A DNA stretch of 64,000 nucleotides, taken from positions 90,916 to 154,915 of the forward strand of contig JAUIDN010000005.1 in NCBI GenBank assembly GCA_030428615.1, read 5' to 3'. This DNA comes from Alphaproteobacteria bacterium (GTDB taxonomy: Bacteria > Pseudomonadota > Alphaproteobacteria > Sphingomonadales > Emcibacteraceae). This document shows, one piece after another, positions 6,190 through 27,706 of this stretch (within the stretch, counting starts at the first letter, position 1; every line of letters begins with the position of its first letter). A program made the translations under genes and the position numbers. The notes under the pieces are model-generated. The model ran no database searches. It was not told where the DNA came from and was given only the letters and a program-made list of their open reading frames with translations.

Positions 6190-7542
6190 TTAGAAAGTTA
6201 AAATAAACGTGGCGCCTCCGCCATCCGTTTTTGAAAGGCTGACCGAACCACCATGAGCTATCATGACCTGACGCGTCAATGCAAGCCCCACGCCAGACCC
6301 GTCCCGTTTAGTAGTATAAAAAGGAACAAATATTTTTGCGGCCAACGTTTCTGATATCCCGGGGCCGTTATCTGACACTTCAATAACTATGCGGCCCCGC
6401 TTATTCAGTTTTGCCGACAGCTTAACCTTGGGATTTTCAATATTCTCAAGCGCCTGTTCAGCGTTTTTCATCATATTAATCAGCATCTGCTCAAGCATTT
6501 CCCGGTCAGCGGAAATCTCCAGCCCATCGGTCGAAACGTTCATTTCAACCTCAATGCCTTTATCTTCCCAGTCAATTGTAGCAACTCTTATGACATCTTC
6601 GAATATTTCTTTAACGTTGAGCTGTTCTTTCTCCGGCGGTGGAAGTCTTGTTAACCGTCGATAGCTTTGCACAAAGTGCATCAAGCTATCAGAGCGGCGC
6701 GCCACTGTATCTACGGCGTCACGAACGTCGGTTAATTCTTCAACCAGTTCTTTTTGTCCTTCGATTTTCTTAATCGCGTCATCAACCAAATCTGTTGATG
6801 TCTTCGCCAATGAGGAAACCGGCGTTATACTATTCATGATTTCATGCGTAAGCACCCTAACCAGATCCTGCCAGGCCTTCAACTGCGCTACGTCAAGTTC
6901 GCTTTGGATGTCCTGAAGCGAAATTATTTTCTCAACTTTTCCCGCAGTCACAATCTGTGTTGCCCCTACTGTCAAGGTCTGTTCCATATCATCCACCTTA
7001 AACGTGACGAGGTGCCGTTCTCCCGGCCCAAGGGTCACAAGGTTCTTTCTAAACTCCTCTCCAAACTGGGTCAGGTCTGAAATCCGCGATACATGAGCGG
7101 CACCAAAGAGACGCCGGGCAGCATTATTATGGATCAGAATTGTTCCGTCCCCTTTTAACGACAATAGCGGAACGGGGACGTGTTCTATCAATGCTTTCAG
7201 ATGCTTGAGTTCTTCTTCCTGCTGACCGCGAAATTGGCGAAAACGCTCAAGAATATCGGTAATGGCTTCACCAAGTTCAATAAACCCGGCGCCCATTCCC
7301 GCATGATCAAATTTTTGCCCGAAATCGCCATATCGCATGGCGTCCAAAAATCTTGTCAGGTCGTCATTGGTGAGTTTTACAAAGCGGACAATTTCGAAAA
7401 TCTGAAAAAGAGCAATCAGAAAAATCAGAAGACTTGCGGCCAGAAACCCTGGACTAATAACGAGAATGGCGAGACTTGTTACCGTGATGAAAAGAAGCAC
7501 CAACCTGATTGTCAACAGAAGGCTGAAGCGTTTAAAACCCAT
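6190..7542 (-). CDS. NtrY-like membrane sensor histidine kinase
   Basis: This 450-residue kinase has two N-terminal membrane segments (residues about 8-50) with almost no periplasmic loop. A linker/PAS region follows (LIEHVPVPLLSLKGDGTILI), then the HisKA box with phospho-acceptor His in LTHEIMNSITP and a HATPase domain (N box NMMKNAEQAL, G1 DNGPGI, G2 GSGVGLAL). The short loop suggests that it senses something within the membrane or a partner protein. Its start overlaps the end of the response regulator gene by 11 bases, so the pair is cotranscribed and cognate. With that regulator it most likely controls the sigma-54 promoter of the exporter cluster. Confidence 0.88.
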   Translation of the reverse strand: MGFKRFSLLLTIRLVLLFITVTSLAILVISPGFLAASLLIFLIALFQIFEIVRFVKLTNDDLTRFLDAMRYGDFGQKFDHAGMGAGFIELGEAITDILERFRQFRGQQEEELKHLKALIEHVPVPLLSLKGDGTILIHNNAARRLFGAAHVSRISDLTQFGEEFRKNLVTLGPGERHLVTFKVDDMEQTLTVGATQIVTAGKVEKIISLQDIQSELDVAQLKAWQDLVRVLTHEIMNSITPVSSLAKTSTDLVDDAIKKIEGQKELVEELTDVRDAVDTVARRSDSLMHFVQSYRRLTRLPPPEKEQLNVKEIFEDVIRVATIDWEDKGIEVEMNVSTDGLEISADREMLEQMLINMMKNAEQALENIENPKVKLSAKLNKRGRIVIEVSDNGPGISETLAAKIFVPFYTTKRDGSGVGLALTRQVMIAHGGSVSLSKTDGGGATFILTF

Positions 7543-8950
7543 ACTTCTCCATCCTTCGATAGAGTGCCGCTCTGGTAAGCCCCAATTCCTTTGCCGCGTG
7601 GGAGATATTGTAGCGATGTTTTTTCAGGGAACGCTCTATCAGCAAATATTCCATCTTTTCCAGATTGAGATCGTCATCCGGCAACGCCAGTTCCGCTTCA
7701 CTATTCGCCGCATCGCCGTTACGCTTATTTTCAGGCTCCCCTGCATTTACGGACTGATTTTCGAGCGCAAAATCAGTTGGGGTAAACGTGTTTCCCTGGC
7801 TTAAAATAACAGCGCGTTCAACTGCATGCCGTAATGCTCTTACATTGCCGGGCCAATCATAGGCTTTAATGGCTGCAAGGGCTTCGGGGGACATCTTTTT
7901 ATATGCTTTATCATATTTGCGACAATAAAGTTTTATATAGTATTTGGCGATATCCTCAATATCGTCAGGCCGCTCCCTAAGCGGAGGAACATCAATCTCC
8001 ACGGTATTAAGACGAAACAGTAAATCCTGCCGAAAACGGTTTTCATCGTTGAGCTGTTTTTGCGTCAAATTTGTAGCCGCAATTACCCTAACATCAATTG
8101 AAACAGGTTGATTTGAGCCAACTGGCGTTACTTTTCGCTGTTCAAGAACCGTAAGGAGCTTTGCCTGAAGATGAAGCGGAAGATTGCCAACCTCATCTAA
8201 AAATAATGTCCCGCCATTAGCGGCTTCAAGACGGCCGACACGGTCCTCTTTTGCATCTGTGAACGATCCTTTTTTATGACCAAATAATTCGCTGTCGAAC
8301 AAGCTCTCGCTGATGGCTCCCATATCAACGCTCAGAAAAATTTCGCCGGAACGATTTGATAAACTATGCAGTTCTCTTGCCACCAATTCCTTACCGGTAC
8401 CATTTTCACCAACAATTAGTACATTGGCATCCGTCGGCGCTGCCCGTTCAATCATGCTGTGAATGTGTTTCAAGGCATCTGAATTTCCGATAAGCCGCTG
8501 CGCCCCGCGGTCCTGAACCAGTGTTCTGTTGGCCTGTCTCAAGGTCGCGGCCTCGTTTCTCGTTTTGCGCAGTTTGACTGCTGCTGAGAGCGTGGCCACA
8601 ACCTTTTCATTCTGCCACGGTTTTGAAACAAAATCCGTTGCTCCCATTTTCATTGCTTCAACGGCAATATTTACACCACCATGCGCTGTAATCATTATGA
8701 CAACGGCATTTGGATCTATTTTCAAAATCTCCGCGAGCCAGTAGAACCCTTCTTCGCCCGAGCTTTCACCGGGACCAAAATTCATATCAAGCAAAATGGC
8801 GTCAAAATTCTGTTTTCTCATTTCCGCTGCTATCTGGTTCGGCTGGCTTAAGGTCACCACATTTGCAAAATGACGCTTAAGCAATAATTTACCCGCCACC
8901 AGAATATCTTCATCGTCGTCGACAATCAGTATGGAACCGCGTTTTTCCAT
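7532..8950 (-). CDS. NtrC-family sigma-54-dependent response regulator
   Basis: The receiver domain (residues about 5-125) has the phospho-Asp in ILLDMNFGPG and the Lys in FVSKPW. An AAA+ sigma-54 activation domain follows (Walker A GENGTGKE, Walker B GGTLFLDEVG), then a Fis-type helix-turn-helix at the extreme C-terminus (SHAAKELGLTRAALYRRM). The sigma-54-contacting loop reads GSFTDA instead of the usual GAFTGA. The ORF track opens at a TTG, but the next codon at 8950 is ATG with GCAGG upstream, so I use 8950. It is first in the operon with the sensor kinase and diverges from the exporter cluster. The palindromes at 8995-9036 are its most plausible binding sites and lie close enough to its own start for autoregulation. 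Confidence 0.93.
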   Translation of the reverse strand: MEKRGSILIVDDDEDILVAGKLLLKRHFANVVTLSQPNQIAAEMRKQNFDAILLDMNFGPGESSGEEGFYWLAEILKIDPNAVVIMITAHGGVNIAVEAMKMGATDFVSKPWQNEKVVATLSAAVKLRKTRNEAATLRQANRTLVQDRGAQRLIGNSDALKHIHSMIERAAPTDANVLIVGENGTGKELVARELHSLSNRSGEIFLSVDMGAISESLFDSELFGHKKGSFTDAKEDRVGRLEAANGGTLFLDEVGNLPLHLQAKLLTVLEQRKVTPVGSNQPVSIDVRVIAATNLTQKQLNDENRFRQDLLFRLNTVEIDVPPLRERPDDIEDIAKYYIKLYCRKYDKAYKKMSPEALAAIKAYDWPGNVRALRHAVERAVILSQGNTFTPTDFALENQSVNAGEPENKRNGDAANSEAELALPDDDLNLEKMEYLLIERSLKKHRYNISHAAKELGLTRAALYRRMEKYGF

Positions 8951-8994
8951 CAATAAAACCTGCTATTTTTATATTGTTCAATTTCGCACACAAG

Positions 8995-9036
8995 TGTTCA
9001 ATAATGAACAGTATATACTGTTCGTTTTCGAACAGT
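8995..9036 (+). promoter_or_regulatory. Overlapping enhancer-like palindromes (probable response-regulator sites)
   Basis: Three dyads overlap: TGTTCA-ATAA-TGAACA (8995-9010), the perfect 18-mer GAACAGTATATACTGTTC (9006-9023), and ACTGTTCG-TTTT-CGAACAGT (9017-9036). All are built from TGTTC/GAACA half-sites. The outer two centres are 24 bp apart, about two helical turns. They sit about 75-100 bp upstream of the expected start of the sigma-54 promoter, the usual position for dimers of an NtrC-type activator. Confidence 0.75.
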
Positions 9037-9073
9037 AAAGATTTAAATTATTGAATACTAATGATTTTATTTC

Positions 9074-9089
9074 TGGCACGCTCCTTGCA
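9074..9089 (+). promoter_or_regulatory. Sigma-54 (-24/-12) promoter of the exporter cluster
   Basis: TGGCACG-CTCC-TTGCA matches the sigma-54 consensus TGGCACG-N4-TTGCW at every position, with the GG and GC dinucleotides at the canonical distance. Transcription would begin near 9100, about 50 bases ahead of the adaptor gene start at 9148. The nearby NtrC-family regulator gene and enhancer palindromes make this assignment strong. Confidence 0.9.
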
Positions 9090-9147
9090 ATATTATTAAC
9101 GTGCCCTAAAAAACCACTTTAAACGAGAATAAATGTAAGCGAATAAA

Positions 9148-10467
9148 ATGACAAAAATGGACAATAACATAAATAAGCCCGCAGGCGCTCACGCCGGAAC
9201 CGGCATGGACCGAAAAATCGAGAAAAAGAGAAGCCCACTTAAAATGGCCCTTTGGGGGGGTGGCGGTTTGATTGTCGCCATAATGCTGTATCTTGTTATC
9301 GAAAGTGCAACGGGCGGACGCACTTTCCGGGTGGAAGAAAGCAGACTTGTTGTCTCCACCGTGACCAGCGGTATTTATGAGGATTATATCCCGATCCGCG
9401 GTAAGGTAACGCCGCTTACAACAGTATTTGTTTCTGCAACCGAAGGGGGGCGCGTTGAGAAAATTCTTGTGGAAGATGGCGCCATCGTGAAACAGGGGCA
9501 GGAATTGGTGGAACTGTCAAATCCGACATTGCAGCTTGAAGTTTTTCAAAATGAAGCACGCGTCGCGGGAGAACTTAACGCAATGAGAACCTTGGAGCTT
9601 CAGCTTGAGCAAAACAGACTACGCCACATCACAAATATTACAACACTGGATTATGAAATTCAAAAATTGACCAGAAACGTTGAAAGATACCGGATCCTTT
9701 ATGAACGTGGGAACTTTACCAAAACCCAGCTTGATGAAGCGGAAGAAGATTTAGAGTATAAAATAAAATTGCGTGAAATAACATTACAAACTCAGGAAAC
9801 CGACGCGCGCATGCAGGAGCAACAACTTGAAATGTCCCGTCTTGATGCGCAGAATCTTGAACGAAACCTTGCGATTGCAAGAACCAGTCTCGACAATTTG
9901 AATATGAAAGCTCAGATTGAAGGTCAGCTTTCAGGGTTTGATTTGGAGCTTGGACAAACAGTTGGTCGGGGTGATTCCATTGGTCAAATTGATGACCCTT
10001 ATCATTTCAAACTGGAAGTACAGGTCGATGAATTTTACCTAAACCGTGTCGATCTTGGTCAGACAGGTGTCTATGTACGTCCGGGCGATAATGCAGAATT
10101 CCCGATGCGGATTAAAAAGATTTACCCCGACGTACAAAACAACCAGTTTAAAATAGACATGGTTTTTACCGAGGAACAACCGCAAGACATCCGCCGTGGT
10201 CAGACATTGCAGTCAAAATTGACCTTGGGTGATTCCACAGAAGCCCTGCTTATTCCAAACGGCGCTTTCTATCAGGATACAGGTGGTAGCTGGATTTTTG
10301 TTGTAAGCGACGATAACAGCTTTGCTGTAAAAAGAAATATCCGCCTGGGCAGAAAAAACAACAACTTCATTGAAGTAATAGACGGCCTTGAGATTGGTGA
10401 ACGGGTGATCACCTCACCCTACACAAGCTTTATGGATATGGATCGCCTGAAGTTAACTGAAGAATAG
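9148..10467 (+). CDS. HlyD/MacA-type periplasmic adaptor protein
   Basis: This 439-residue membrane-fusion protein has a cytoplasmic N-terminus, one membrane anchor at about residues 32-52 (ALWGGGGLIVAIMLYLVI), and a first half-lipoyl segment (GGRVEKILVEDGAIVKQGQELVEL). A long charged coiled coil spans about 130-250, followed by a returning beta-barrel (FKLEVQVDEFYLNRV) and a membrane-proximal domain (ALLIPNGAFYQ, then GLEIGERVITSPY). Adaptors of this kind bridge a MacB-type permease to an outer membrane channel. No TolC-like gene is in the window, so an unlinked channel would be needed. It is the first gene behind the sigma-54 promoter. A second ATG 9 bases downstream is a possible alternative start. 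Confidence 0.9.
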   Translation: MTKMDNNINKPAGAHAGTGMDRKIEKKRSPLKMALWGGGGLIVAIMLYLVIESATGGRTFRVEESRLVVSTVTSGIYEDYIPIRGKVTPLTTVFVSATEGGRVEKILVEDGAIVKQGQELVELSNPTLQLEVFQNEARVAGELNAMRTLELQLEQNRLRHITNITTLDYEIQKLTRNVERYRILYERGNFTKTQLDEAEEDLEYKIKLREITLQTQETDARMQEQQLEMSRLDAQNLERNLAIARTSLDNLNMKAQIEGQLSGFDLELGQTVGRGDSIGQIDDPYHFKLEVQVDEFYLNRVDLGQTGVYVRPGDNAEFPMRIKKIYPDVQNNQFKIDMVFTEEQPQDIRRGQTLQSKLTLGDSTEALLIPNGAFYQDTGGSWIFVVSDDNSFAVKRNIRLGRKNNNFIEVIDGLEIGERVITSPYTSFMDMDRLKLTEE

Positions 10468-10500: not shown

Positions 10501-11178
10501 ATGTTAAAACTACAAGACCTGACCAAAGCTTATCGCACGGACGAAGTCGAAACGGTTGCTCTTAATAATGTCAACATTGAAATTGAGCACGGTGAATTTG
10601 TTGCCATCATGGGGCCATCCGGTTGCGGCAAGTCAACTTTGCTCAATATCATCGGTATGCTTGATACCCCGACAAGTGGACATTATTTCTTTCAGGACGA
10701 AGATGTCGCCGGTTATTCAGAGGCGCAGCTTGGCGTCATCCGAAAACAGCATATTGGTTTTATTTTCCAGAGCTTCAATCTGATTGATGAATTGTCAGTC
10801 GCGGAGAATATTGAACTGGCACTTCTTTATCATGATATTCCGGCTTCTGAGCGTAAGGAACGTGTTGCCGCTGTTATGGATAAGGTTGGGATAGCCCACC
10901 GCGCTAAGCATATGCCAAGCCAGCTTTCTGGTGGTCAGCAACAACGGGTCGCCGTCGCACGTGCCGTTGTCGGCAATCAAAGCATGATCCTTGCTGATGA
11001 GCCAACTGGTAACCTTGATACCGCGCACGGACAGGAAGTTATGGAAATGCTCCAACAGCTGAACGAAGAAGGCACCACCATCGTTATGGTGACACATAGT
11101 CCCTCTCATGCGGATTATGCAAGACGCACGATTAACCTTCTGGATGGGCATGTGGTTACCGAAAGCATGCGTGCATAA
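10501..11178 (+). CDS. MacB/LolD-type ABC ATPase
   Basis: This 225-residue ATPase has Walker A GPSGCGKST, Q-loop FIFQSFNLIDELSVAENI, signature LSGGQQQRVAVARA, Walker B MILADEPTGNLD and switch His in VTHS. The ADEPTGNLD form and the short size place it in the LolD/MacB/FtsE branch that powers FtsX-fold permeases by mechanotransmission. A good AAAGGA site precedes the ATG. It is the only ATPase in the cluster and is followed by six permease genes, so it presumably drives all of them. Confidence 0.93.
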   Translation: MLKLQDLTKAYRTDEVETVALNNVNIEIEHGEFVAIMGPSGCGKSTLLNIIGMLDTPTSGHYFFQDEDVAGYSEAQLGVIRKQHIGFIFQSFNLIDELSVAENIELALLYHDIPASERKERVAAVMDKVGIAHRAKHMPSQLSGGQQQRVAVARAVVGNQSMILADEPTGNLDTAHGQEVMEMLQQLNEEGTTIVMVTHSPSHADYARRTINLLDGHVVTESMRA

Positions 11179-11231: not shown

Positions 11232-13715
11232 ATGCTTCTTACAAATTATTTTGTCAGCGCCTGGCGCAATATTTATAAACATAAGCTATTCAGCGCAATT
11301 AACATATTGGGATTGGCGATCGGTCTGGCCTCCTGCATCCTGATTGCATTATTTGTGCGGGACGAAATCTCCTACGATAAATTCTGGTCAAATGCGGACA
11401 ATATGTATCGTGTGCACCTTACCTTCAATGTTCCTGGCCGTGATCCGATGAAACTCGCCATGGCACCAGGCCCGGTGATCCATGCATGGAAAAAAGATTT
11501 TCCGCAGGTCACACATGCATCCCGGCTTTCACAAAGAGAACCAACCGTCATCATCGGCGACCGATATTTTGTTGACGATATCACACTGGTCGATCCGGAT
11601 TTTCCAGAAATATTTGATTTAAACGCTGTCTCCGGGGACCTGACCAATGCCTTTATTGGTTTTGATAACATTGTATTGAATGAAACTTTGGCTAATAAAT
11701 ATTTTGGAAGTAAACAGGCGGTTGGACAAATCATAACGCTCGACTTTGGGTCATTTCAACGCGATTATAATGTTGCTGCTGTTATTAAAGATATGCCTAA
11801 AAACAGCCAGGTTATCCCTAAAGCTCTTATCACCATTGATGAGCCCGCCTGGAAAGAACAACCTTGGATGTTCGATGCCTGGTTTTCAACAAACGCCCAA
11901 CTATACTTCAAACTTTCCGATACAACCAATATCGAAAGTATCAACCGTGAACTACCCGCTTTTGTAAATAGAAATTTTCCGAAAATCCCCATTGGCGGAG
12001 ATAATGTGAAAAATTCTGACCTGATCATCATGTCAACGATGAACGTCAAGGATCTTCATCTTGCACCATCCAGGGATGGTGAATATCAGGATCGCGGCAA
12101 TAAGAATACGGTAATGATTTTTGCCACAGTCGCAACACTGATATTGATCATTGCCGCGATCAATTTTATGAACCTAAGCACAGCGCGCGCCAGCCAACGT
12201 GCCAAAGAAGTCTCCCTACGTAAAGTTATGGGGGCTTCGCGAAAAGACCTGATTGTTCAATTTTTGGGTGAATCCGTTCTTCTGACCTTCTTTGGCCTTC
12301 TGATCGCGCTTGCCATCGTTGAAATAGCATTACCAAAGTATAACGAAATATTGGATAAAACATTTTCAATTGATTACGGTTCAAGTGACGTTCTGTATAT
12401 TATTATTCTTGCCATATCCGTAGGAATTCTTGGCGGTTCCTATCCGGCATTTTTCTTATCACATTTTAGACCCGCCGAAAATCTAAAAGCCAACAAATCG
12501 GCGGAAACCAAAGCATCTGTCAAATTAAGGTATGCTCTGGTTATATTACAGTTTTCAGTTTCAATTACATTGTTTGTCTCCACCGCCGTCGTTTACGGGC
12601 AAATGCTATATGCCAAGAATATGGATCTTGGCTACAACACTGATAATGTGCTTGCTGTTCATGAAATCTCACGTGATGTTGTGCAGAAAAAACTGCCCCT
12701 GCTCGTGGAAGAAATAAAACGTATGCCAAACGTCTCAGCCGTAACCTGGTCAGACTTTACCCCGGGGAGAGCAAACCAGAACAACACCATCGTCCATGTC
12801 GAAGGACAAAGCAATGAAGATGGTATTCTCATCGGAAGCCGCGGCATCGGGTATGATTATTTCAATGCGTATGATGTACCCATCATTGCTGGACGAGAAT
12901 ATAGCCGCGAACGCGGTGACAGAGACGTCAGTACAGATGATTTGAGAAACGGTATTAATTACACCGGCTCTATCATGATCAATGAAAGCGCGATCGGACG
13001 GCTGGGATTAGGATCTCCACAGGAAGCTGTCGGAAAATTAATATTTGCTGGTGCCGGTCAACCGGAAGAAAACCTTACAGCGACCTATGAAATTATTGGT
13101 GTGGTTCCGGACATTCATTTTGACAGTCTAAAATCAACAATTCGTCCTGAAATTTATGAAATCCATGCAGATTACGGAAATGCAATTTCTGCACGATTTT
13201 CTGGCGATCCTGAAGAATTAGTCGAAAATGTAAGACGTTTATGGGAGCAGGAAATTCCAAGTATCCCATTTGACTACAGCTTTATACGTGAGGCCGTCGC
13301 CCGGCAATATAACGCGGAACAGGGTCAGGCAAATATGTTTGCTGCCTTTTCTGCTCTCGCGATCCTGATTGCCTGTTTGGGGCTATATGGACTTGCCAGT
13401 TTCACTGCAGATCGAAGAACAAAAGAGATCGGCATTCGAAAAGTTATGGGTGCCAGTGTCTTTGATGTTGTGAAATTATTGGTATGGCAATTTTCGAAAC
13501 CCGTGATTATCGCAAATCTTATCGCATGGCCAATTTCTTATTACGCTATGAGTATCTGGCTGGAAAATTTCGTTTACCGGATAGAAGCGTTTTTCATCAT
13601 TGGTTTCTGCCTTCTTGCTGGCATTGCTGCACTTCTGATTGCATGGGGAACAGTTGCCGGGAACAGTGTTCGGGTTGCCAGTGCCAATCCCATAAATGCG
13701 TTGAGGTATGAATGA
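11232..13715 (+). CDS. MacB-like double-FtsX ABC permease 1
   Basis: This 827-residue protein holds two FtsX modules. TM1 is at about residues 17-41, followed by a MacB_PCD-like periplasmic domain to about 290 and TM2-4 at about 292-412. TM5 lies at about 433-458, then a second periplasmic domain and TM6-8 at about 701-810. Both conserved post-TM boxes are intact: STARASQRAKEVSLRKVMGA after TM2 and ADRRTKEIGIRKVMGAS after TM6. It ends NPINALRYE. The 800-residue duplicated architecture resembles the permeases common in Bacteroidetes and the acidobacterial ADOP group. It is closest to permeases 2 and 3 of this array and overlaps the next gene by 4 bases. The substrate is unknown. Confidence 0.92.
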   Translation: MLLTNYFVSAWRNIYKHKLFSAINILGLAIGLASCILIALFVRDEISYDKFWSNADNMYRVHLTFNVPGRDPMKLAMAPGPVIHAWKKDFPQVTHASRLSQREPTVIIGDRYFVDDITLVDPDFPEIFDLNAVSGDLTNAFIGFDNIVLNETLANKYFGSKQAVGQIITLDFGSFQRDYNVAAVIKDMPKNSQVIPKALITIDEPAWKEQPWMFDAWFSTNAQLYFKLSDTTNIESINRELPAFVNRNFPKIPIGGDNVKNSDLIIMSTMNVKDLHLAPSRDGEYQDRGNKNTVMIFATVATLILIIAAINFMNLSTARASQRAKEVSLRKVMGASRKDLIVQFLGESVLLTFFGLLIALAIVEIALPKYNEILDKTFSIDYGSSDVLYIIILAISVGILGGSYPAFFLSHFRPAENLKANKSAETKASVKLRYALVILQFSVSITLFVSTAVVYGQMLYAKNMDLGYNTDNVLAVHEISRDVVQKKLPLLVEEIKRMPNVSAVTWSDFTPGRANQNNTIVHVEGQSNEDGILIGSRGIGYDYFNAYDVPIIAGREYSRERGDRDVSTDDLRNGINYTGSIMINESAIGRLGLGSPQEAVGKLIFAGAGQPEENLTATYEIIGVVPDIHFDSLKSTIRPEIYEIHADYGNAISARFSGDPEELVENVRRLWEQEIPSIPFDYSFIREAVARQYNAEQGQANMFAAFSALAILIACLGLYGLASFTADRRTKEIGIRKVMGASVFDVVKLLVWQFSKPVIIANLIAWPISYYAMSIWLENFVYRIEAFFIIGFCLLAGIAALLIAWGTVAGNSVRVASANPINALRYE

Positions 13716-16189
13716 TGATTATTTCCAATTACCTCACCACCGCCTGGCGCAACATTTACAATCATAAACTTTTCAGTGCCATTAATATACTGGGGCTGGC
13801 CATCGGACTATCAGCGGTCATATTAATTACGCTTTTTGTCCGTAATGAGCGTTCTTATGACAAATTTTGGGCGAATTCTGAAAATATCTACCGCATGCAT
13901 CAAACCTTTCTGCCCACGGAACGCGCGCCAATGATATTTACGATGGCTGCCGGAAAAATAATCCACGCTTTAAGAAAGGATTTTCCGCAAGTGGAAAAAG
14001 CCGCGCGTGTATCGAATAAGCGAACGACCATAATCAAAGGCGACCAATATTTTGAAGAAATTTTAAGCCTCGTTGATCCTGATTTCGTTAGAATATTCGA
14101 CTTCAAAGCTATCGCCGGTGATCTTGAAAATACGTTAAACGACCAAAACAGCATCGTTTTAAACCAAACCCTCGCGAATAAATTTTTCCCCGATGGCAAT
14201 GCAATGGGCCAAACCCTAACCATCAATGCGGACGTCTATGAACGCGAATTCCGGGTAGGCGCCATTATTGAAGATATGCCAGACAACAGTCAGGTTAACG
14301 TGAGCGCCATGGTTTCAATCGTCGAAGAAGAATGGAAAGAGCAGGATTGGATGTTCGACCAATGGTTTTCTGTGAATTCACACCTTTATTTTTCGCTTAA
14401 ACCTGGCACGGACATCAAAACCATAAATGATCAAATGCCGGCATTTATTGACCGGAATTTCCCACGCGACGAAGGGGGCGATATAGTCTCCAGTTTTGTG
14501 CTATTAAATTCACAGAATATCCAAGACTTGCATCTGCGGGCACAGGGTGTTGGTGAATATCGTGACAGGGGAAGCATAAATACGGTTTTGACTTTTTCCG
14601 CTGTCGCTGTACTGATCCTTATAATTGCCAGTATAAATTTCATGAATTTAAGCACCGCACGGGCAAGCCAGCGTGCTAAAGAAGTCAGTCTCCGTAAAGT
14701 TATGGGCGCTTCACGAAAGGACCTGATTTTCCAGTTTATTGGCGAGTCCGTTCTTATTACCTGTCTGGCCTTATTTATATCGTTAGCAATCGTTGAAATG
14801 ACCCTGCCAATTTACAACGAAATCCTTGGCAAAGAACTTTATATCAACTATGCGTCTACTGACCTCGTCCTTATTATCGTGCTTGCTGTCAGTGTCGGTA
14901 TCTTAGGCGGTATTTATCCCGCTTTAATTCTGTCCGGATTTCGACCCGCAAGTGTCCTTAAAGCTAACCAGTCTTCAGAAAGCGGCGCATCGGTTAAATT
15001 AAGGGCTGTTCTTGTAATATTTCAGTTTGCCGTTTCAATTACACTGTTCGTTTCCACCGCTGTCGTATACGGACAAATGCTTTATGCTAAAAACATCGAT
15101 CTTGGCTTTGACAAAGAAAATTTATTGGTTGTTAAAAACATTTACCGGCAGGCCGCAAGCCAGAAACTTTCAACCCTAGTCAATGAATATAGGCGTCTGC
15201 CAAACGTTTCCCGTGTCACTTGGTCAAATGAAGCGCCGGGCGTTCAATCGGAAAACAACACGGGTATGCGCACTCCGGAAATGCCGATGACGGAAACGTT
15301 CTTAATCGGTGTGCGATGGGTAGGATATGAATATTTTGAAACCTACGACATCAAACTTCTCGCGGGGCGTTCTTACGACATAAACAAAAATGATCGCCGC
15401 GCGGAAGCCAGTGAAATACGCGCAGGTCGCGGCCACACCAGCTCTCTGATTATAAATGAAACCGCAGCGCGTAAATTTGGCTTCACAAGCCCCGAAGAAG
15501 CAATTGGAAAAATTCTTTATCGTGGTATCGGGGAGAATGGTGAAAACCTACAACGCGAATACCAGATTATTGGTGTCGTGCCGGACCTGCACCTTGATAG
15601 TCTGAAGAAAGAAATAAGGCCTGAAATATTTGAGCTTCAAACGGAAATAGCGCAATATATTACAATCCGGTTTAACGGCAGTCCGGCCGATACAGTTGAT
15701 GAGGTACGCGCCATTTGGGAACGAGAAGTCCCCAGCATCCCATTTGCATATGACCACGCGATTGACACGTTGGATGAGCAGTATCAATCAGAACAGGGGG
15801 AAATGACAATGTTTGCGGCCTTTTCGTCACTTGCCATAATCATAGCCTGTCTTGGTCTTTATGGATTAGCGAGCTTTACTGCTGAACGACGGACCAAGGA
15901 AATCGGTGTACGCAAAGTCATGGGCGCCACCGTTTTCGACATCATTAAACTACTTGTCTGGCAATTCTCGAAACCCGTGATAATCGCAAATCTGATTGCC
16001 TGGCCAATATCATTCTACGCAATGTCAATCTGGCTCGAAAGTTTTGTCTACAGAATTGAAGATATTTTCATCATTGGTTTTTGCGCCCTCGCCGGGGTGG
16101 CCGCGCTTCTTATCGCGTGGGCTACTGTCGCAGAAAACAGTATTCGCGTTGCTAGATCAAATCCTATCAAAGCCTTGAGGTATGAATAA
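13712..16189 (+). CDS. MacB-like double-FtsX ABC permease 2
   Basis: This 825-residue protein is nearly collinear with permease 1 (the same opening NILGLAIGLSAVILI, the same FtsX boxes, the same NPIKALRYE end). It is clearly a tandem duplicate. Divergence is concentrated in the two periplasmic domains, for example FLPTERAPMIFTMAAGK where permease 1 has NVPGRDPMKLAMAPGP. That pattern fits substrate- or partner-specific extracellular parts on a conserved membrane engine. Start and stop both overlap the neighbouring permease genes (ATGA before, TAATG after), which implies coupled translation. Confidence 0.92.
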   Translation: MMIISNYLTTAWRNIYNHKLFSAINILGLAIGLSAVILITLFVRNERSYDKFWANSENIYRMHQTFLPTERAPMIFTMAAGKIIHALRKDFPQVEKAARVSNKRTTIIKGDQYFEEILSLVDPDFVRIFDFKAIAGDLENTLNDQNSIVLNQTLANKFFPDGNAMGQTLTINADVYEREFRVGAIIEDMPDNSQVNVSAMVSIVEEEWKEQDWMFDQWFSVNSHLYFSLKPGTDIKTINDQMPAFIDRNFPRDEGGDIVSSFVLLNSQNIQDLHLRAQGVGEYRDRGSINTVLTFSAVAVLILIIASINFMNLSTARASQRAKEVSLRKVMGASRKDLIFQFIGESVLITCLALFISLAIVEMTLPIYNEILGKELYINYASTDLVLIIVLAVSVGILGGIYPALILSGFRPASVLKANQSSESGASVKLRAVLVIFQFAVSITLFVSTAVVYGQMLYAKNIDLGFDKENLLVVKNIYRQAASQKLSTLVNEYRRLPNVSRVTWSNEAPGVQSENNTGMRTPEMPMTETFLIGVRWVGYEYFETYDIKLLAGRSYDINKNDRRAEASEIRAGRGHTSSLIINETAARKFGFTSPEEAIGKILYRGIGENGENLQREYQIIGVVPDLHLDSLKKEIRPEIFELQTEIAQYITIRFNGSPADTVDEVRAIWEREVPSIPFAYDHAIDTLDEQYQSEQGEMTMFAAFSSLAIIIACLGLYGLASFTAERRTKEIGVRKVMGATVFDIIKLLVWQFSKPVIIANLIAWPISFYAMSIWLESFVYRIEDIFIIGFCALAGVAALLIAWATVAENSIRVARSNPIKALRYE

Positions 16190-18639
16190 TGAAACTTGCC
16201 AATTACATGATCAGTGCGAGCCGTAATCTTTACAAACATAAACTGTTTAGCGCAATAAACATTCTTGGGCTTGCTATTGGCTTTGCCACATGTATCCTGA
16301 TCATGCTTTTTATAAAGGATGAACTAAGCTTTGACAGTTGGATTCCGGATAGTGAAAATATCTATCGCGTTGAACTTACCAGCTTTCCGCCCGGCACAAG
16401 AACATTTGAGCTTGCAGCAACCATGGGGCCATTCAAACCATTTATTGAACAGGATTTTTCTGAAGTGGAGCTGGCATCCCGCTTGCGTTATGAAAAAAGA
16501 AACGTTCGCTTAGGTGATGACTATATTGCCGAGCAAATAGCATTCGTAGACAGTAACTTTTTTCAAATATTCGACCTGCCACTCGCACAAGGCATTGTAG
16601 ATCAGTCTTTCGATGACCCTGCAGAAGTCATATTGTCCGAAAAAATGGCCATAAAATATTTTGGCGAGATCAATGTTGTCGGAGACAGCCTGACACTGAG
16701 CAACGGCCGTGATTACAGGGTATCTGCCGTTTTAAAGGACCTGCCTCATACTACGCATTTCGACCTCAATCTGGTCATTCCGTTAAGTTATTCGGAATTT
16801 CCAAAGGACGAAGAAAGTGGCGATCAGTCAATCTTGGATGACTGGTTTAATATCGGAACTTACATCTATGTAAAAGTGGACCGCTCAGCAAACCCGGTCA
16901 ACCTTGTGTCACAATTTCCCGCATTTCTAGACCGAAGAGCGCCAAGACCCAATGACCGTGTCATTCCGAGTGAACGTTGGCAGCTTAATCTTATGCCTCT
17001 TGAAGATATTCATTTGAAAGGCGCACCGGAAGCGCGCATCAAACCCAAAGGCAGCATGACCACGATTATGTCATTCGCGCTGATAGCGCTTATGATCCTG
17101 ATCATTGCGTGCTTTAATTTCATGAATCTGTCCACTGCGCGCGCTAGTCTGAGGGCAAAGGAAGTCGCTCTAAGGAAAGTTCTGGGCGCTGCAAGAAAGG
17201 ATATAATTGTTCAGTTCCTGACTGAAGCAGCTCTTATGGCATTCACGGCATTCCTGATTGCGTTAGTCATCGTGGAAGTCTCCCTTCCCTATTACAGTAT
17301 TCTGATCAATAAAATATTGGGAATAGGTGTGCTTCATTCTCCCGTAATGATGGGATTGCTCGTGATACTCACATTTTTCGTTGCGCTTGGTGCAGGTGCA
17401 CATCCGGCCTTTATTATGTCGTCATTCCACCCTAGTAGGATATTAACCACTGGAAAATCCGAAAGCGTCGGTTCCATAAAATTCAGAACTGCATTGGTGA
17501 TTATTCAGTTTACGATTTGTATTTCGCTCATTGTAACTACGCTCGTGGTATATACGCAGCTTGAATATAGTCTGGACCGTGATGCTGGCTACAACAAGGA
17601 AAACCTAATCGTTCTGGATAGCATAAATGACCCTTTGGTAATCGGACAATCACAGGTTCTCAAAAACCGCCTTCTTGCGCTTCCTAATGTATCGCAAGCA
17701 ACGCTTACTTCATCTGTCCCTGCCGATCGACTTGTCCCTATACTCGGGTTCGGAAATGTGGGCGGACAATCCGTCGATCCAATTTTGCTGCGGGTACAAA
17801 GCATTGATCATGATTACTTATCTACATATGGTATCAACATGGTCGCAGGGCGCAACCTATCCCGGAACAGGGGTGATGATGTCGCCGTCTATTACGACGA
17901 AGATATGAAAGACAGCAACATCCTTATAAATCAATCAGCGGTATCAAAGTTGGGATTTAAAAGCCCTCAGGATGCAATCGGAAAAAGAATAATAGATGAA
18001 GTGGCCTTCACGATTGTTGGCGTAATTCCGGATATTCATCTTCAAACCACCCGAGAAGAAATCAATCCCACCTTTTATTATATCGATCAAAAATTTTATA
18101 ATAAGCTAACGCTCAAAATTTCCTCCGGTAATATGGAAAGAACAATTGCAGATATAAAAGAAATCTGGATTGATCTTTTCCCTCAGGTGTCCTTTAATCC
18201 GCAGTTTCTGGATGAAAAAATCGCCGCACAATATAAATCTGATCAGGATCAAGGGCAGCTATTTTTATTATTCGCTGGTCTCGCTGTTATCATTTCAAGC
18301 TTGGGACTTTATGGCCTAGCCAGTTTCACGGCAGACAGAAGAATAAAAGAAATAGGTATCCGCAAGGTGATGGGAGCAACCGTTTTTGATGTTGTAAAGC
18401 TTCTGGTATGGCAATTTTCCAAACCCGTCATGATCGCAAACCTGATAGCCTGGCCTCTCTCATTTTATATTATGTCCCGCTGGTTGGAGAATTTTTCTTA
18501 CCGTATTGATAAGCTGACTATAATTGGTTTTTGTTTCGCGGCAGGTGGCGTTGCTCTTCTAATTGCATGGGTCACTGTTGCTGGGAACAGTATTCGCGTC
18601 GCTAAATCCAACCCCATAAAAGCCCTTAGATATGAATAG
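16189..18639 (+). CDS. MacB-like double-FtsX ABC permease 3
   Basis: This 816-residue protein is the third member of the array, with the same eight-TM, two-FtsX layout: NILGLAIGFATCILI at TM1, STARASLRAKEVALRKVLGA and ADRRIKEIGIRKVMGAT after TM2 and TM6. It ends NPIKALRYE. It belongs with permeases 1 and 2 but has a shorter and more diverged first periplasmic domain. It starts within the TAATG overlap with permease 2 and is followed by a 9-base gap containing the ribosome binding site of permease 4. Confidence 0.92.
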   Translation: MKLANYMISASRNLYKHKLFSAINILGLAIGFATCILIMLFIKDELSFDSWIPDSENIYRVELTSFPPGTRTFELAATMGPFKPFIEQDFSEVELASRLRYEKRNVRLGDDYIAEQIAFVDSNFFQIFDLPLAQGIVDQSFDDPAEVILSEKMAIKYFGEINVVGDSLTLSNGRDYRVSAVLKDLPHTTHFDLNLVIPLSYSEFPKDEESGDQSILDDWFNIGTYIYVKVDRSANPVNLVSQFPAFLDRRAPRPNDRVIPSERWQLNLMPLEDIHLKGAPEARIKPKGSMTTIMSFALIALMILIIACFNFMNLSTARASLRAKEVALRKVLGAARKDIIVQFLTEAALMAFTAFLIALVIVEVSLPYYSILINKILGIGVLHSPVMMGLLVILTFFVALGAGAHPAFIMSSFHPSRILTTGKSESVGSIKFRTALVIIQFTICISLIVTTLVVYTQLEYSLDRDAGYNKENLIVLDSINDPLVIGQSQVLKNRLLALPNVSQATLTSSVPADRLVPILGFGNVGGQSVDPILLRVQSIDHDYLSTYGINMVAGRNLSRNRGDDVAVYYDEDMKDSNILINQSAVSKLGFKSPQDAIGKRIIDEVAFTIVGVIPDIHLQTTREEINPTFYYIDQKFYNKLTLKISSGNMERTIADIKEIWIDLFPQVSFNPQFLDEKIAAQYKSDQDQGQLFLLFAGLAVIISSLGLYGLASFTADRRIKEIGIRKVMGATVFDVVKLLVWQFSKPVMIANLIAWPLSFYIMSRWLENFSYRIDKLTIIGFCFAAGGVALLIAWVTVAGNSIRVAKSNPIKALRYE

Positions 18640-18648
18640 GAGAATATC

Positions 18649-21114
18649 ATGTTATTAAACCATGTAAGTATGTCTTTTCGAAGTATCATCAAAAACAAGC
18701 TTTACAGTGTTATAAATATCGCAGGGCTGGCAGTGGGACTGGCAGTGTCGATCCTTATCATCCTGTTTGTAAGCCATGAGACCTCTTTTGACAGCACCGT
18801 CGCTGATCATGACCGTGTATATCGGCTCAATTGGGAAAGTAAATCATCTGGCTCTCGATTTGCGACATTTTTTAACCCATTATCACCCGTCATTGCCGAT
18901 GCCTTTCCCAATGACGTCGAAATGGTAACGCGCATAACGTTATCCGAAAGATTATTGAATATCGGTGAAAATAAACAATACCAAACCATCAGTTTTGTCG
19001 ATCCAAATTTTTTCAGCATGTTTCCTTACGAATTTTACGCCGGTGACCCAGCAACAGCATTAAGCAACTTAAATGGCGCTATCATAACACAAGCGGCAGC
19101 AGATGTTCTTTTCCCGGACGAGCTAGCAATTGGAAAAACAATCACACTGGATGGTCAACATGATTTTCAGATAACAGCAATTATCAGCAACAATAAAAGC
19201 AATAGCCACCAGATATCCAACATATTTGTAAATATGGAAATGTTACCAACAGTGTGGAATGATCCTGACATATGGCAGCGAAATTTTTCTGATCAGCTTT
19301 ATCATTATATAAAACTAGCCCCAAATGTTTCAGCTGATGTCTTTGCTGCAAACGCACATACTTATATAAGTGAAAATATCAATCAGGAATTTGGAGAAAG
19401 TATAAGTTTTATTGCTCAGCCATTAAGCGACATTCATTTTACAACAGAATTACAAAATGAAATGTCCGTAAGAGACACTGTGACCGGATTATCAAAGCCC
19501 GCCCGTCAACGGTCCGATATAAACATATTCGGTTTTGTCGCCATCCTGACATTGGTTATCGCGACATTCAATTTTATTAACATGCAAATTGCACAAAGCA
19601 GTAACCGTATTAAAGAAGTTGGGGTCAGAAAGGTCCTTGGCGCCAACCGTTCGCAGATAGCGGCGCAATTTATCATCGAATCCACCGTAATGTCGATAAT
19701 CGCACTCATCGCGTCGCTTGTGATAGTCGAAATGTTTGCACCTTTTTTTGGAACCATGCTTGGTGTACCGCTCGTTGCTGACCAAATCTATAGTTTGGGT
19801 TTTATTTCAGGTTTGCTGCTTGTTTCAATACTCGTCGGCATACTTTCCGGTCTGTACCCGGCACTTTTTGTATCGGGAATTCTTCCTGCCAAGGCGATCC
19901 GCAGCCGGGTATTCGAAGGGGTCGGGTCGGCCAAGCTTAGAGCAGGGTTGGTCATATTGCAGTTTTCAATCGCAATCGGTCTATTATCCGCGACCGGAAT
20001 TGTAAACAGGCAAATTGATTTTGCCCTGAACAAACCATTGGGATATGAACCTGAGAACGTCATTACAGTACGCCTGAACAATGACGAGGCACGTGATGCA
20101 TATAATATTATGCATGACCAGCTACTTGCCAATCCGGAAATTACGGCCGTTTCAAGAGGATCAGTTATTCCCACCCGTGATCTTTCCGATGGCAGCACTT
20201 ATTTGAAAGAAGATGAAGGCCCCGATTTTAAAATCAACACAAGACGTGTTGGTGTGTCCGATGGTTATTTCGATTCACTTGGGATGCAATTTGCAGCAGG
20301 AAGAGCATTAAGCGAAGACTTTTTGGGGGATGTATTACCCAGTATAAGCCCGGATAACGCAACCGTTTCCGGCGGAATAGTTTTAAATGAAACGGCTGCG
20401 AAACAAGCGGGATGGACCAATGCAAACGATGCCTTGGGACAACAAATATACAGTGTTTTTTCCTTCGGTGGCACCGACTATAGAATGAATTTAAATATTG
20501 TTGGTGTTGTTGAGGATGCACATTATAGTTCAGTGCGATCTGAACCCGCGTCCCTTTCATTTTTAATGACAGGAGGCGGCAATAATATGGTCATCAAAGC
20601 CAGTGACGGCAATTTGGATAAAGCAACCCAACTGGTCGACCAGGTCTGGCAGCAACATGTGCCTTCCTACCCTATTCGCAGAACCTTTCTGGAGGAAGAC
20701 TACGCCTCATTTTACGCAGTGGAAGGTCGCGTTTTCAGGATGTTTATCGGCTTTGCCGGACTGGCGGCGATGATCGCCTGTATTGGTCTTTATGGTCTTG
20801 CAAGCTTTATTGCGGATCGCCGGACAAAGGAAATCGGCATTCGCAAGGTGCTCGGCGCATCCGTTCTTGACATTGTCATGATGCTTTCCTGGGAACTTTC
20901 CAAACTTGTGATAATCGCAAACATAATCGCCTGGCCTGCGGCCTGGATACTCATGAACGACTGGTTAACAGGCTTCAGTTACCGTATTGAAATGACAATA
21001 ATGCCGTACCTTCTGGCGGGCGTCGTGGCATTCATTCTGGCATACGCTACAACGTCAATCAGGGCCTGGGCTGCGGCGCGGATAAATCCGATATATTCGC
21101 TTAAAAATGAATAA
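18649..21114 (+). CDS. MacB-like double-FtsX ABC permease 4
   Basis: This 821-residue protein has the same architecture as its neighbours but is an intermediate lineage. TM1 reads VINIAGLAVGLAVSILI, the box after TM2 is SSNRIKEVGVRKVLGANR and that after TM6 is ADRRTKEIGIRKVLGAS. The C-terminus NPIYSLKNE departs from the ALRYE/ALHYE ending of the other five. The periplasmic domains have little visible identity to those of permeases 1-3. It has its own ribosome binding site (AGGAGA) rather than an overlap. Confidence 0.92.
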   Translation: MLLNHVSMSFRSIIKNKLYSVINIAGLAVGLAVSILIILFVSHETSFDSTVADHDRVYRLNWESKSSGSRFATFFNPLSPVIADAFPNDVEMVTRITLSERLLNIGENKQYQTISFVDPNFFSMFPYEFYAGDPATALSNLNGAIITQAAADVLFPDELAIGKTITLDGQHDFQITAIISNNKSNSHQISNIFVNMEMLPTVWNDPDIWQRNFSDQLYHYIKLAPNVSADVFAANAHTYISENINQEFGESISFIAQPLSDIHFTTELQNEMSVRDTVTGLSKPARQRSDINIFGFVAILTLVIATFNFINMQIAQSSNRIKEVGVRKVLGANRSQIAAQFIIESTVMSIIALIASLVIVEMFAPFFGTMLGVPLVADQIYSLGFISGLLLVSILVGILSGLYPALFVSGILPAKAIRSRVFEGVGSAKLRAGLVILQFSIAIGLLSATGIVNRQIDFALNKPLGYEPENVITVRLNNDEARDAYNIMHDQLLANPEITAVSRGSVIPTRDLSDGSTYLKEDEGPDFKINTRRVGVSDGYFDSLGMQFAAGRALSEDFLGDVLPSISPDNATVSGGIVLNETAAKQAGWTNANDALGQQIYSVFSFGGTDYRMNLNIVGVVEDAHYSSVRSEPASLSFLMTGGGNNMVIKASDGNLDKATQLVDQVWQQHVPSYPIRRTFLEEDYASFYAVEGRVFRMFIGFAGLAAMIACIGLYGLASFIADRRTKEIGIRKVLGASVLDIVMMLSWELSKLVIIANIIAWPAAWILMNDWLTGFSYRIEMTIMPYLLAGVVAFILAYATTSIRAWAAARINPIYSLKNE

Positions 21115-21135
21115 AAATAAGAAAAGAGAAATAAT

Positions 21136-23562
21136 ATGTTCAGGAATTACGTAAAAATAGCTATTCGAAGCATCCTTAAAAACAAGCTCTACGCGGTGAT
21201 CAATATATTGGGCCTTGCTATGGGGCTAGCGATATATCTGTTTGGCGGTCTTTTATCCGAATATGAATATACCCATGATGCCTTTTTTGACAATTCAGAC
21301 CGCACTTACACAATCCGCGGTGCCGTCAACGCGAGTGCAAATATGAGCATTGGGCAAGTCGACGGTGTTCAAAGCGCCGTCGGAGTGCTTATAAAAACGG
21401 AATTGAGTGAGGTAGAGGCCGTTGCCAGAACGAAATTACGTGAATTTCTGGTCAGTATCGGTGAAGATAATTACTATCAAAATATTCGTTTTGCAGATCC
21501 CGAGCTGTTGGAAATATTTAATTTTGAATTTATTGAGGGCAACAAGTCCGCGTTGGAAAGTTCAACAGGAATCATTATCACCGAATCTTCAGCGGAAAAA
21601 TATTTTGGTGACGAAAACCCAATCGGCAAAACACTCACCCTTGATCATGAACATGATCTGACTGTCACTGCCCTTATTCGTGATGTGCCCGCAAATTCAC
21701 ATTTTAATTCGCAAATTGTGATGAGCCGACCACTTGAAATTCTCGCCCCGATGAACGCGATGGAACGCATTACAGGGTTCGTGCCAGATACCAACTGGAC
21801 CAGCACCTCAATGGGTGATCTCACTTATGTCCTGCTTCCACCTAATCTTGATCAGGAATGGTTGCAGACGCAGATGGACGGCATATTTGAGCGCCATACG
21901 CCTGAAGATCAGCGAAATTTTCTGGACGGCTTTATTGTTCGGCCAATGACAGACGCCAATACCGCCATTTGGGACATGCTGGGTATCCCCGTGATTACGG
22001 TTGTTGAGGTTCTGGGTTTTATGGTGCTTGTCATTGCCTGCGTCAATTACACAAACCTTGCTACCGCACAATCCATGGGCCGTGCGCGTGAAGTGGGCCT
22101 TCGTAAAACATTGGGAGCCGGACGCGCTCAACTACTGACACAATTTATTGTGGAAAGCATGACGATCACAATGGTTGCCATGATCATTGCCCTTGCCGCT
22201 CTTGAAGCCATAATCCCTTTATTTAATTCTGCCACCGGGAAAATTCTTTCCGTCAACTATTTGCAGACGCTACCTTGGCTGATGATGACAACCATTACTG
22301 TCGGGGTGTTGGCAGGAGCATATCCCGCCTACCTGATCACAAAAACAAACCCAATCGAAGCGCTACGGGACTCCGCGCGTAAAGGGCGGGGCGCGAGCTG
22401 GATTCGCGGTGCCATGATTGGTCTTCAATTCACAATATCCGTTGGAATTCTGGCGTCCGTTCTGGTGGTATATGCCCAAAACCAACAGGTCGAGGAAAGC
22501 AGTAAAATTTTCCCGAAAGATCAGATTTATACGCTCGACCGTATTAATGTCGATCAGATGACTGATCGGCACGAAGTCCTTCGAAATGAAATGGTGAATG
22601 TGCCTTATGTGGAAAATTTCACACTTTCTTCGCAAGTGCCTTACGAACAGAACAACACGACCATAAGGGCTTCAAAGGTACTTAATGATTTCAGCGCTGC
22701 GGTAAATTTCAATCAGTTGAATATAGATGATCAATTCATAGACACCTATGATATTCCGATAATCGCCGGACGAAATATTTCACGCGATATTGCCATGGAC
22801 ACCCACATCAGGGAACGGGGTGGCGTAAACGTTCTGCTTAATGAAGCTGCGGTAAGAGAACTCGGTTTCCCATCCCCTGAAGATGCCATCGGCGAGGTTT
22901 TTTACGAAGATGAGGGAGACCGCGGCATCACAACGTATACCATTGTTGGGGTTACGGCCGACCGCAATATTCTGGGGCTTTTTAACAGTATCAAGCCATT
23001 CTTCTTTTTTATGCGGGATGCCTCCTATCGTTTAGCCTCAATCAAGATTTCCGCCAATGCGCCCGTAAGCGTTGTACGCGACATCGAAGAAGTGTGGCAG
23101 GAAGTTTATCCCGATTACCCCATGCAGGGTAAGTTCCTGGATGAAACATTCCAAATGGTCTACATGATTTTCGATATGGCGACAAAGTCGCTGGCCGCGT
23201 TCGCCCTGTTTGCATTGTTCCTCGCTGCCATCGGCTTATTCGGATTGGCCGCCTACATGGCCGAGCAAAAAACCAAGGAAATCGGCATTCGCAAGGTCCT
23301 CGGTGCCAGCAATAATCAGATCATACAGCTTCTGATCTGGCAGTTTTCCAAACCGGTAATCTGGGCCACTCCCCTGGCGCTGGCGCTCGCTTATTTTGCT
23401 TCGAACGCATATCTTGAATTTTTTGCGGAACGGATCAGTCTTCCTTATGGGATGCTGATTGGCGCAGGACTTGGCGGACTGTTGCTTTCTTGGGCCACCG
23501 TCGCCACGCACGCTTTTAATATTGCCAAAACAAATCCGGTGAATGCATTGCATTACGAATAG
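21136..23562 (+). CDS. MacB-like double-FtsX ABC permease 5
   Basis: This 808-residue protein forms a distinct pair with permease 6. Shared features are LYAVINILGLAMGLAIYLFGG at TM1, the SEYEYTHDAFFDNS segment, NYTNLATAQSMGRAREVGLRKTLGAG after TM2, AEQKTKEIGIRKVLGAS after TM6, and the NPVNALHYE end. The QSM...KTLGAG box differs from the RASQRAKEVSLRKVMGAS box of permeases 1-3, so this is an older branch of the family. It is preceded by AAGAGA and followed 13 bases later by permease 6. Confidence 0.92.
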   Translation: MFRNYVKIAIRSILKNKLYAVINILGLAMGLAIYLFGGLLSEYEYTHDAFFDNSDRTYTIRGAVNASANMSIGQVDGVQSAVGVLIKTELSEVEAVARTKLREFLVSIGEDNYYQNIRFADPELLEIFNFEFIEGNKSALESSTGIIITESSAEKYFGDENPIGKTLTLDHEHDLTVTALIRDVPANSHFNSQIVMSRPLEILAPMNAMERITGFVPDTNWTSTSMGDLTYVLLPPNLDQEWLQTQMDGIFERHTPEDQRNFLDGFIVRPMTDANTAIWDMLGIPVITVVEVLGFMVLVIACVNYTNLATAQSMGRAREVGLRKTLGAGRAQLLTQFIVESMTITMVAMIIALAALEAIIPLFNSATGKILSVNYLQTLPWLMMTTITVGVLAGAYPAYLITKTNPIEALRDSARKGRGASWIRGAMIGLQFTISVGILASVLVVYAQNQQVEESSKIFPKDQIYTLDRINVDQMTDRHEVLRNEMVNVPYVENFTLSSQVPYEQNNTTIRASKVLNDFSAAVNFNQLNIDDQFIDTYDIPIIAGRNISRDIAMDTHIRERGGVNVLLNEAAVRELGFPSPEDAIGEVFYEDEGDRGITTYTIVGVTADRNILGLFNSIKPFFFFMRDASYRLASIKISANAPVSVVRDIEEVWQEVYPDYPMQGKFLDETFQMVYMIFDMATKSLAAFALFALFLAAIGLFGLAAYMAEQKTKEIGIRKVLGASNNQIIQLLIWQFSKPVIWATPLALALAYFASNAYLEFFAERISLPYGMLIGAGLGGLLLSWATVATHAFNIAKTNPVNALHYE

Positions 23563-23575
23563 GAAAAGGGGAAGA

Positions 23576-26002: not shown

Positions 26003-26046
26003 GAATAGTTGATAAATAAGCATAATCAGAACGGGGAGTTATGCTT

Positions 26047-27669: not shown

Positions 27670-27706
27670 TTAATATGAATAGTTTAGACCAATTGGACAA
27701 TTTAGA

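Follow-up and report, generated by a model that had tools for sequence, protein, structure and literature searches.

Organization of the Divergent Locus

The locus raises the question of what switches an exporter operon with one adaptor, one ATPase and six permeases, and whether the two-component pair transcribed away from it is the regulator. The whole stretch of DNA that was analysed, 64,000 nucleotides from a marine alphaproteobacterium of the Emcibacteraceae lineage, is referred to as the window, and its features are collected in Table 1. The answer that we consider very probable on the sequence evidence is that the region between the two transcription units serves as enhancer and promoter for a sigma-54 regulon, in which the divergent two-component system switches the array operon, orphan permeases and TolC.

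Table 1. Predicted features of the window and site-bearing permease units elsewhere in the genome.
Feature	Position	Strand	Basis or remark
Sensor histidine kinase	6190..7542	-	PF02518 (HATPase_c); weak PAS match; hydropathy
NtrC-type response regulator	7532..8953	-	PF00072 (receiver), PF00158 (sigma-54 AAA+), PF02954 (Fis-type HTH)
Dyad 1, TGTTCAATTTCGCACA, predicted distal regulator site	8975..8990	.	1 mismatch to TGTTC-N6-GAACA
Dyad 2, TGTTCAATAATGAACA	8995..9010	.	Exact TGTTC-N6-GAACA; gap of 63 to -24 element kept
Dyad 3, TGTTCGTTTTCGAACA, predicted proximal regulator site	9019..9034	.	Exact; gap of 39 to -24 element kept
Candidate sigma-70 promoter of regulator/kinase pair, TTTACT-18-TATACT	9010..9039	-	Weak consensus match, chance-level count; overlaps dyads 2 and 3
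IHF-like site, ATTCAATAATTTA	9044..9056	-	1 mismatch to WATCAANNNNTTR; between enhancer and promoter
Sigma-54 -24/-12 promoter, TGGCACGCTCCTTGCA	9074..9089	+	Exact TGGCACG-N4-TTGCA; kept at orthologous position
Periplasmic adaptor, HlyD/MacA type	9148..10467	+	Pfam; nearest named model DarC, below cut-off
ABC ATPase	10501..11178	+	Nearest named model DarD, then MacB
Six consecutive duplicated MacB/FtsX permeases	11232..26002	+	ORFs; all six homologous
Permease ORFs	11232-13715, 13712-16189, 16189-18639, 18649-21114, 21136-23562, 23543-26002	+	
Permease units with sites	C21:194381, C21:377043, C21:390057 (two permeases), C24:32886, C40:238		

The promoter TGGCACGCTCCTTGCA was the sole zero-mismatch match to TGGCACG-N4-TTGCA within the window, in agreement with the preliminary description, which had called it a full consensus, and it carries the GG-N10-GC pattern of sigma-54-dependent -24/-12 promoters with 0 mismatches. 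Transcription of the adaptor gene is predicted to start near position 9100. The genome contains one match to RpoN (PF04552, E 3e-64), and the promoter is probably RpoN-dependent.

Exact copies of TGTTC-N6-GAACA were found at only two positions in the window, 8995 and 9019, with their centres 24 bp apart as previously described, and genome-wide there were 11 exact dyads versus 1 in the reversed control. The preliminary description had listed three overlapping dyads, of which these two stood and the middle one did not. The latter is a perfect 18-bp palindrome, GAACAGTATATACTGTTC (9006-9023), and was rejected as an independent site: it consists of the facing halves of the flanking sites, and at the targets in trans the spacers are mostly 3-6 bp rather than 8. 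The third site is instead dyad 1, which lies 20 bp upstream of dyad 2, just beyond the span originally described, and which was found at the same position in all 10 same-genus genomes that have the adaptor, with its 8 core positions 100% identical across the 10 promoters.

The Binding Site and Its Spacing

The proposed recognition site TGTTC-N6-GAACA was refined to a 16-bp site, TGTYCRNWWNYGNACA (TGT-Y-C-R-N-W-W-N-Y-G-N-A-C-A). The consensus obtained from 166 dyads was TGT-T/C-C-R-N-W-W-N-Y-G-A-ACA. A purine occupied position 6, and a pyrimidine position 11, in 165/166 dyads, and positions 8 and 9 were A/T in 165/166; positions 6, 8, 9 and 11 had been left unspecified in the dyad search pattern. 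Distances between dyads of at least 50 bp clustered with a period of about 10.4 bp. Because many of the promoters are orthologous, these dyad statistics are descriptive and do not amount to a strict test.

Conservation Upstream of the Adaptor Gene

The adaptor was used as a query in 81 related genomes, several of which are fragmented assemblies. An orthologue was found in 38, and 30 loci were read. Dyads and a -24/-12 element were present upstream of the adaptor in 29 of these 30 loci, which are all 29 that have the divergent regulator; the 30 loci are not mutually independent, and the targets in trans include many distinct genes. The array, its fixed geometry and the -24/-12 element were kept upstream of adaptor orthologues ranging from 91% to about 50% identity. 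Conservation at orthologous adaptor genes was one of the points on which the preliminary description had staked its reading, and its observation proved genuine and conserved.

Within the genus, 83, 63 and 39 bp separate the ends of the three dyads from the -24 element in 10/10 genomes. Identity in each dyad is 100% at the 8 core positions and averages 70-75% at the other 8. In the genus, every position of the 8-bp spacer GTATATAC and of the GTAAAG that follows dyad 3 is at least 80% conserved. The spacer itself, which may be the -10 region of the regulator gene, is 97% conserved in the genus, but not in other families. Loci in the order's other families mostly have a first spacing of 21 bp, compared with 20 bp here, and the third dyad cannot always be recognised in them.

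Five further loci belong to one family of another class, presumed to be Gammaproteobacteria. Their adaptors are 51-55% identical, and both the dyads and their gaps (62-63 or 39) are retained. The -12 element is TTGTA or TTGAT, which is off consensus, and the spacing is unchanged; strict TTGC scoring of the -12 element overlooked these loci, and the variants were recognised by inspection. At two loci of another genus of the order (L148 and L149, genus g10), the array is eroded or changed, with sites of the type TGTCCG-N4-CGGACA and a regulator that is 58% identical, which is possibly a case of operator drift.

An IHF-like Site Between Enhancer and Promoter

The stretch separating the -24 element from dyad 3 was found to hold an IHF-like element, absent from the preliminary description. 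Matches to WATCAANNNNTTR with no more than 1 mismatch occurred there in 25/31 adaptor promoters versus a shuffle mean of 4.3, and perfect sites occurred in 15/31 versus 0.38 in dinucleotide shuffles. The perfect sites are nearly all at -18 (+ strand) or -30 (- strand) relative to the -24 element. Among the promoters in trans, 7/40 had a perfect site versus 0.53, mostly at -30 or -31, and a perfect site was present in 3/5 of the other-class loci. IHF is predicted to bind in this interval.

Sites in Trans Precede Permease and TolC Genes

The scan for TGTTC-N6-GAACA that had been suggested returned sites elsewhere in this genome and in its relatives, almost always in front of related permeases or TolC. 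In this genome, the refined pattern TGTNCRNWWNYGNACA gave 19 sites versus 4 in the reversed control; 15 of the 19 fall in seven tandem promoters, and the other four are singletons. The site-bearing promoters are those of the array operon, of TolC (C21:13150) and of five permease units (Table 1). The predicted regulon of this genome would thus comprise the array operon, five orphan permease units and TolC.

In total, 38 tandem sites away from the adaptor were read, and a -24/-12 match was located 39-74 bp downstream of all 38, whereas the chance of such a coincidence is estimated at about 3% per site. The genes behind these sites were 29 duplicated MacB/FtsX permeases and 6 TolC-type channels, one of the latter confirmed by Pfam OEP and by NCBIfam TolC above cut-off and the others assigned by their closely similar N-termini. 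Of the remaining three sites, one precedes a secreted S41-like protein, another is at a contig end and the third has no obvious gene. The S41-peptidase-like protein (L119, G011:C133, 1134-2477, - strand) lies directly behind its tandem-dyad sigma-54 promoter and is a possible regulon member that is neither a permease nor TolC. At the last position (L135, G073:C4, ~2480-2600), tandem dyads and a -24/-12 element have no obvious protein-coding gene directly downstream, and the target could be a small RNA or a short ORF.

When the orphan permease units were taken as the starting point and their promoters examined, sites were found at 5/5 units in G077, at 5/5 in G071 (one with a single dyad) and at 3/5 in G013, the other two units examined in G013 having none. 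One permease unit of this genome, L211 (G000:C25:34434-36908), also has no dyads; partial response-regulator and histidine-kinase matches (31-35%) were seen 6-8 kb upstream of it. The surroundings of this genome's orphan permeases were read over mostly ~10 kb on each side, less at C40, and no homologous ATPase or adaptor was found there, with the exception of one distant (26%) ATPase 7 kb away.

Which Protein Acts at the Dyads

The palindromes might be a chance cluster near a chance -24/-12 match, and single dyads in this genome are about as frequent as in the reversed control (four versus four). However, the arrangement is conserved across genera and in a second class, and tandem pairs in the reversed control numbered 0 in the 81 relatives and 0 in 398 phylum genomes. 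Because of this conservation, we regard the chance reading as already refuted, with a negligible probability. A more serious candidate, albeit an improbable one, is some other DNA-binding protein, either a repressor or a second sigma-54 activator, that occupies the dyads, the divergent regulator being a mere neighbour that acts elsewhere. The genome encodes eight sigma-54 activator-like proteins, hence seven besides the regulator, whose nearest paralogue is at 38%. Nevertheless, it is the divergent regulator that the dyads follow. It adjoins the adaptor in 29/30 loci, and dyads were present at 29/29 of these versus 0/1; the exception (L047, G036:C1:143667-144932) is a second adaptor-ATPase copy without the regulator, the dyads or the sigma-54 promoter and serves as a natural negative control, whereas the adaptor copy beside the regulator in the same genome has the promoter and two dyads. 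In a motif-only search of the 81 relatives, tandem dyads were found in 28/40 genomes with a close regulator orthologue versus 0/41 without one, and 7 of the 398 phylum genomes had them, each of these being one of the 15 with the adaptor. From this co-occurrence we infer that the dyads are paired with the divergent regulator, although a second regulator inherited together with the locus might conceivably bind them instead.

The reach of this control must also be considered. It would be purely local if only the adjacent array were regulated and the sites in trans belonged to paralogous regulators, as might be suggested by the other-class genomes, where the strict motif occurs only at the adaptor locus among the matches listed. 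We consider this very unlikely: the sites in trans share the motif and promoter geometry of the adaptor locus and were confined to genomes that encode the regulator, and no close regulator homologue was found in the stretches read around this genome's orphan permease and TolC loci. The tie between the two-component pair and the permease array, as first proposed, is supported at 29/29 loci, and control by the pair appears to reach well past the local array.

Properties of the Regulator and the Kinase

The Pfam domains bear out the earlier assignment of the divergent gene as an NtrC-type activator with a Fis-type HTH. The receiver has an ILLD motif at the expected phosphoacceptor Asp, and the domain content is that of the NtrC family. 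The GAFTGA loop reads GSFTDA in the window, and at the orthologous loci it reads GSFTDA (19), GAFTDA (15) or the canonical GAFTGA (10), with the operator unchanged. The regulator scored below the cut-offs of three named families: NifA (274 bits, TIGR01817 equivalog cut-off 528.9), NorR (310 bits, NF003451 cut-off 476), where the N-terminal domain of our protein is a receiver, and the PEP-CTERM response regulator PrsR (372 bits, TIGR02915 cut-off 502.6). From the hydropathy of residues 1-58, the kinase is predicted to have two TM helices joined by hardly any periplasmic loop, which is the layout of intramembrane-sensing histidine kinases (two TM helices, a very short linker and no extracytoplasmic domain), and therefore sensing via the permeases is plausible.

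Proposed Mechanism

In the model that we favour, the divergent two-component system would sense a signal from the envelope, which may be the state of the permeases. The phosphorylated regulator would then bind, probably as dimers, at the 16-bp dyads, which are spaced about two helical turns apart, and the three sites could seed the AAA+ hexamer. Bending of the intervening 39 bp by IHF would allow the hexamer to touch RNA polymerase-sigma54 at -24/-12, so that the operon of adaptor, ATPase and six permeases would be switched on, and orphan duplicated permeases and TolC would be switched on via the same sites elsewhere. The sites, their geometry and conservation, their co-occurrence with the regulator and the identity of the target genes were read directly, whereas we infer the hexamer seeding, the signal and the use of the array ATPase by the orphan permeases. 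Because the likely sigma-70 promoter of the regulator and kinase overlaps dyads 2 and 3 in this genus, the bound regulator could limit its own synthesis. A tentative and rather doubtful extension is that one adaptor-ATPase pair and one TolC are common to the array and the orphan permeases, and that the kinase reads the working state of the permeases as a Gram-negative sigma-54 counterpart of Bce flux sensing.

Relation to Known Systems

The locus shares with NtrC-, NorR- and PspF-type regulons that use IHF the -24/-12 element, upstream dyads, an AAA+ regulator with a Fis-type HTH and an intervening IHF-like site. It differs from them in the operator sequence, in the 20-21/24-bp spacing kept across genera and in its targets, a permease network and TolC. 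In NorR, the oligomer is scaffolded by three enhancer sites (PMC2941729), and the adaptor/ATPase operon likewise has three regularly spaced dyads. The upstream activator sequence of NifA is TGT-N10-ACA. NifA control was considered since each dyad formally fits this pattern, and it was ruled out by domain content and score: our regulator has a receiver domain, and our site adds the constrained positions C5, R6, Y11 and G12.

A computational survey from 2025 described, as a first link, sigma-54 promoters in front of COG0577 FtsX-like permease genes, with enrichment in gamma-Proteobacteria, Opitutia and Bacteroidia, a list without Alphaproteobacteria (PMC12316311). The likeness to our locus is in the sigma-54 promoters upstream of FtsX-type permease genes; in the accessible text of the survey, a term search found no TolC, MacB or operator, and no regulator is named for these permease genes (PMC12316311). 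Nor did the literature searched contain a named regulator of MacB/FtsX arrays with sigma-54. The mechanism is of a known, classical sigma-54/IHF kind, because sigma-54 promoters before FtsX-like permeases were already reported in that survey (PMC12316311) and because the exporter parts resemble DarBCD/ADOP, whereas the regulator, operator, geometry and trans-regulon appear new within the literature searched. Sigma-54 control of FtsX-type exporters was proposed only recently; to this proposal the locus adds a candidate regulator, an operator and a promoter architecture, and wherever a genome has the motif, the predicted regulon can be read from it. Orphan MacB/FtsX permeases of the duplicated type lack a neighbouring ATPase or adaptor; they would now belong to a defined regulon that has a single ATPase and a single adaptor as well as TolC, and this membership gives a testable hypothesis on their partners.

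Flux sensing has been proposed for Bce modules (PMC10314905), and our locus resembles BceRS-BceAB in having a kinase without a dedicated sensing domain beside an ABC transporter. It differs in being Gram-negative and tripartite, with a sigma-54 regulator that is not of the BceR type, and the coupling of kinase and permease is hypothetical here.

Compared with MacAB-TolC, DarBCD and ADOP, the adaptor resembles DarC, the ATPase DarD and the duplicated permeases DarB/ADOP, and TolC is in the predicted regulon, whereas here there are six permeases per ATPase and orphans elsewhere, and the scores fall below the NCBIfam cut-offs. Each of the four permeases scanned has two MacB_PCD and two FtsX stretches, which is the layout of ADOP duplicated permeases (TIGR03434) in a chain of ~800 aa. 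Two permeases scanned gave 293 and 252 bits, below the TIGR03434 subfamily cut-off of 622, and their DarB-like matches were also below cut-off; the scores against the DarB, DarC and DarD equivalog cut-offs were 178/700, 205/450 and 276/375 bits, respectively. After the permease array, the window continues with genes for a gamma-glutamyltranspeptidase, considered as a possible member of the regulon, and an amidohydrolase (26041-29371), with gaps within about 40 bp each, and these two genes may be co-transcribed with the array.
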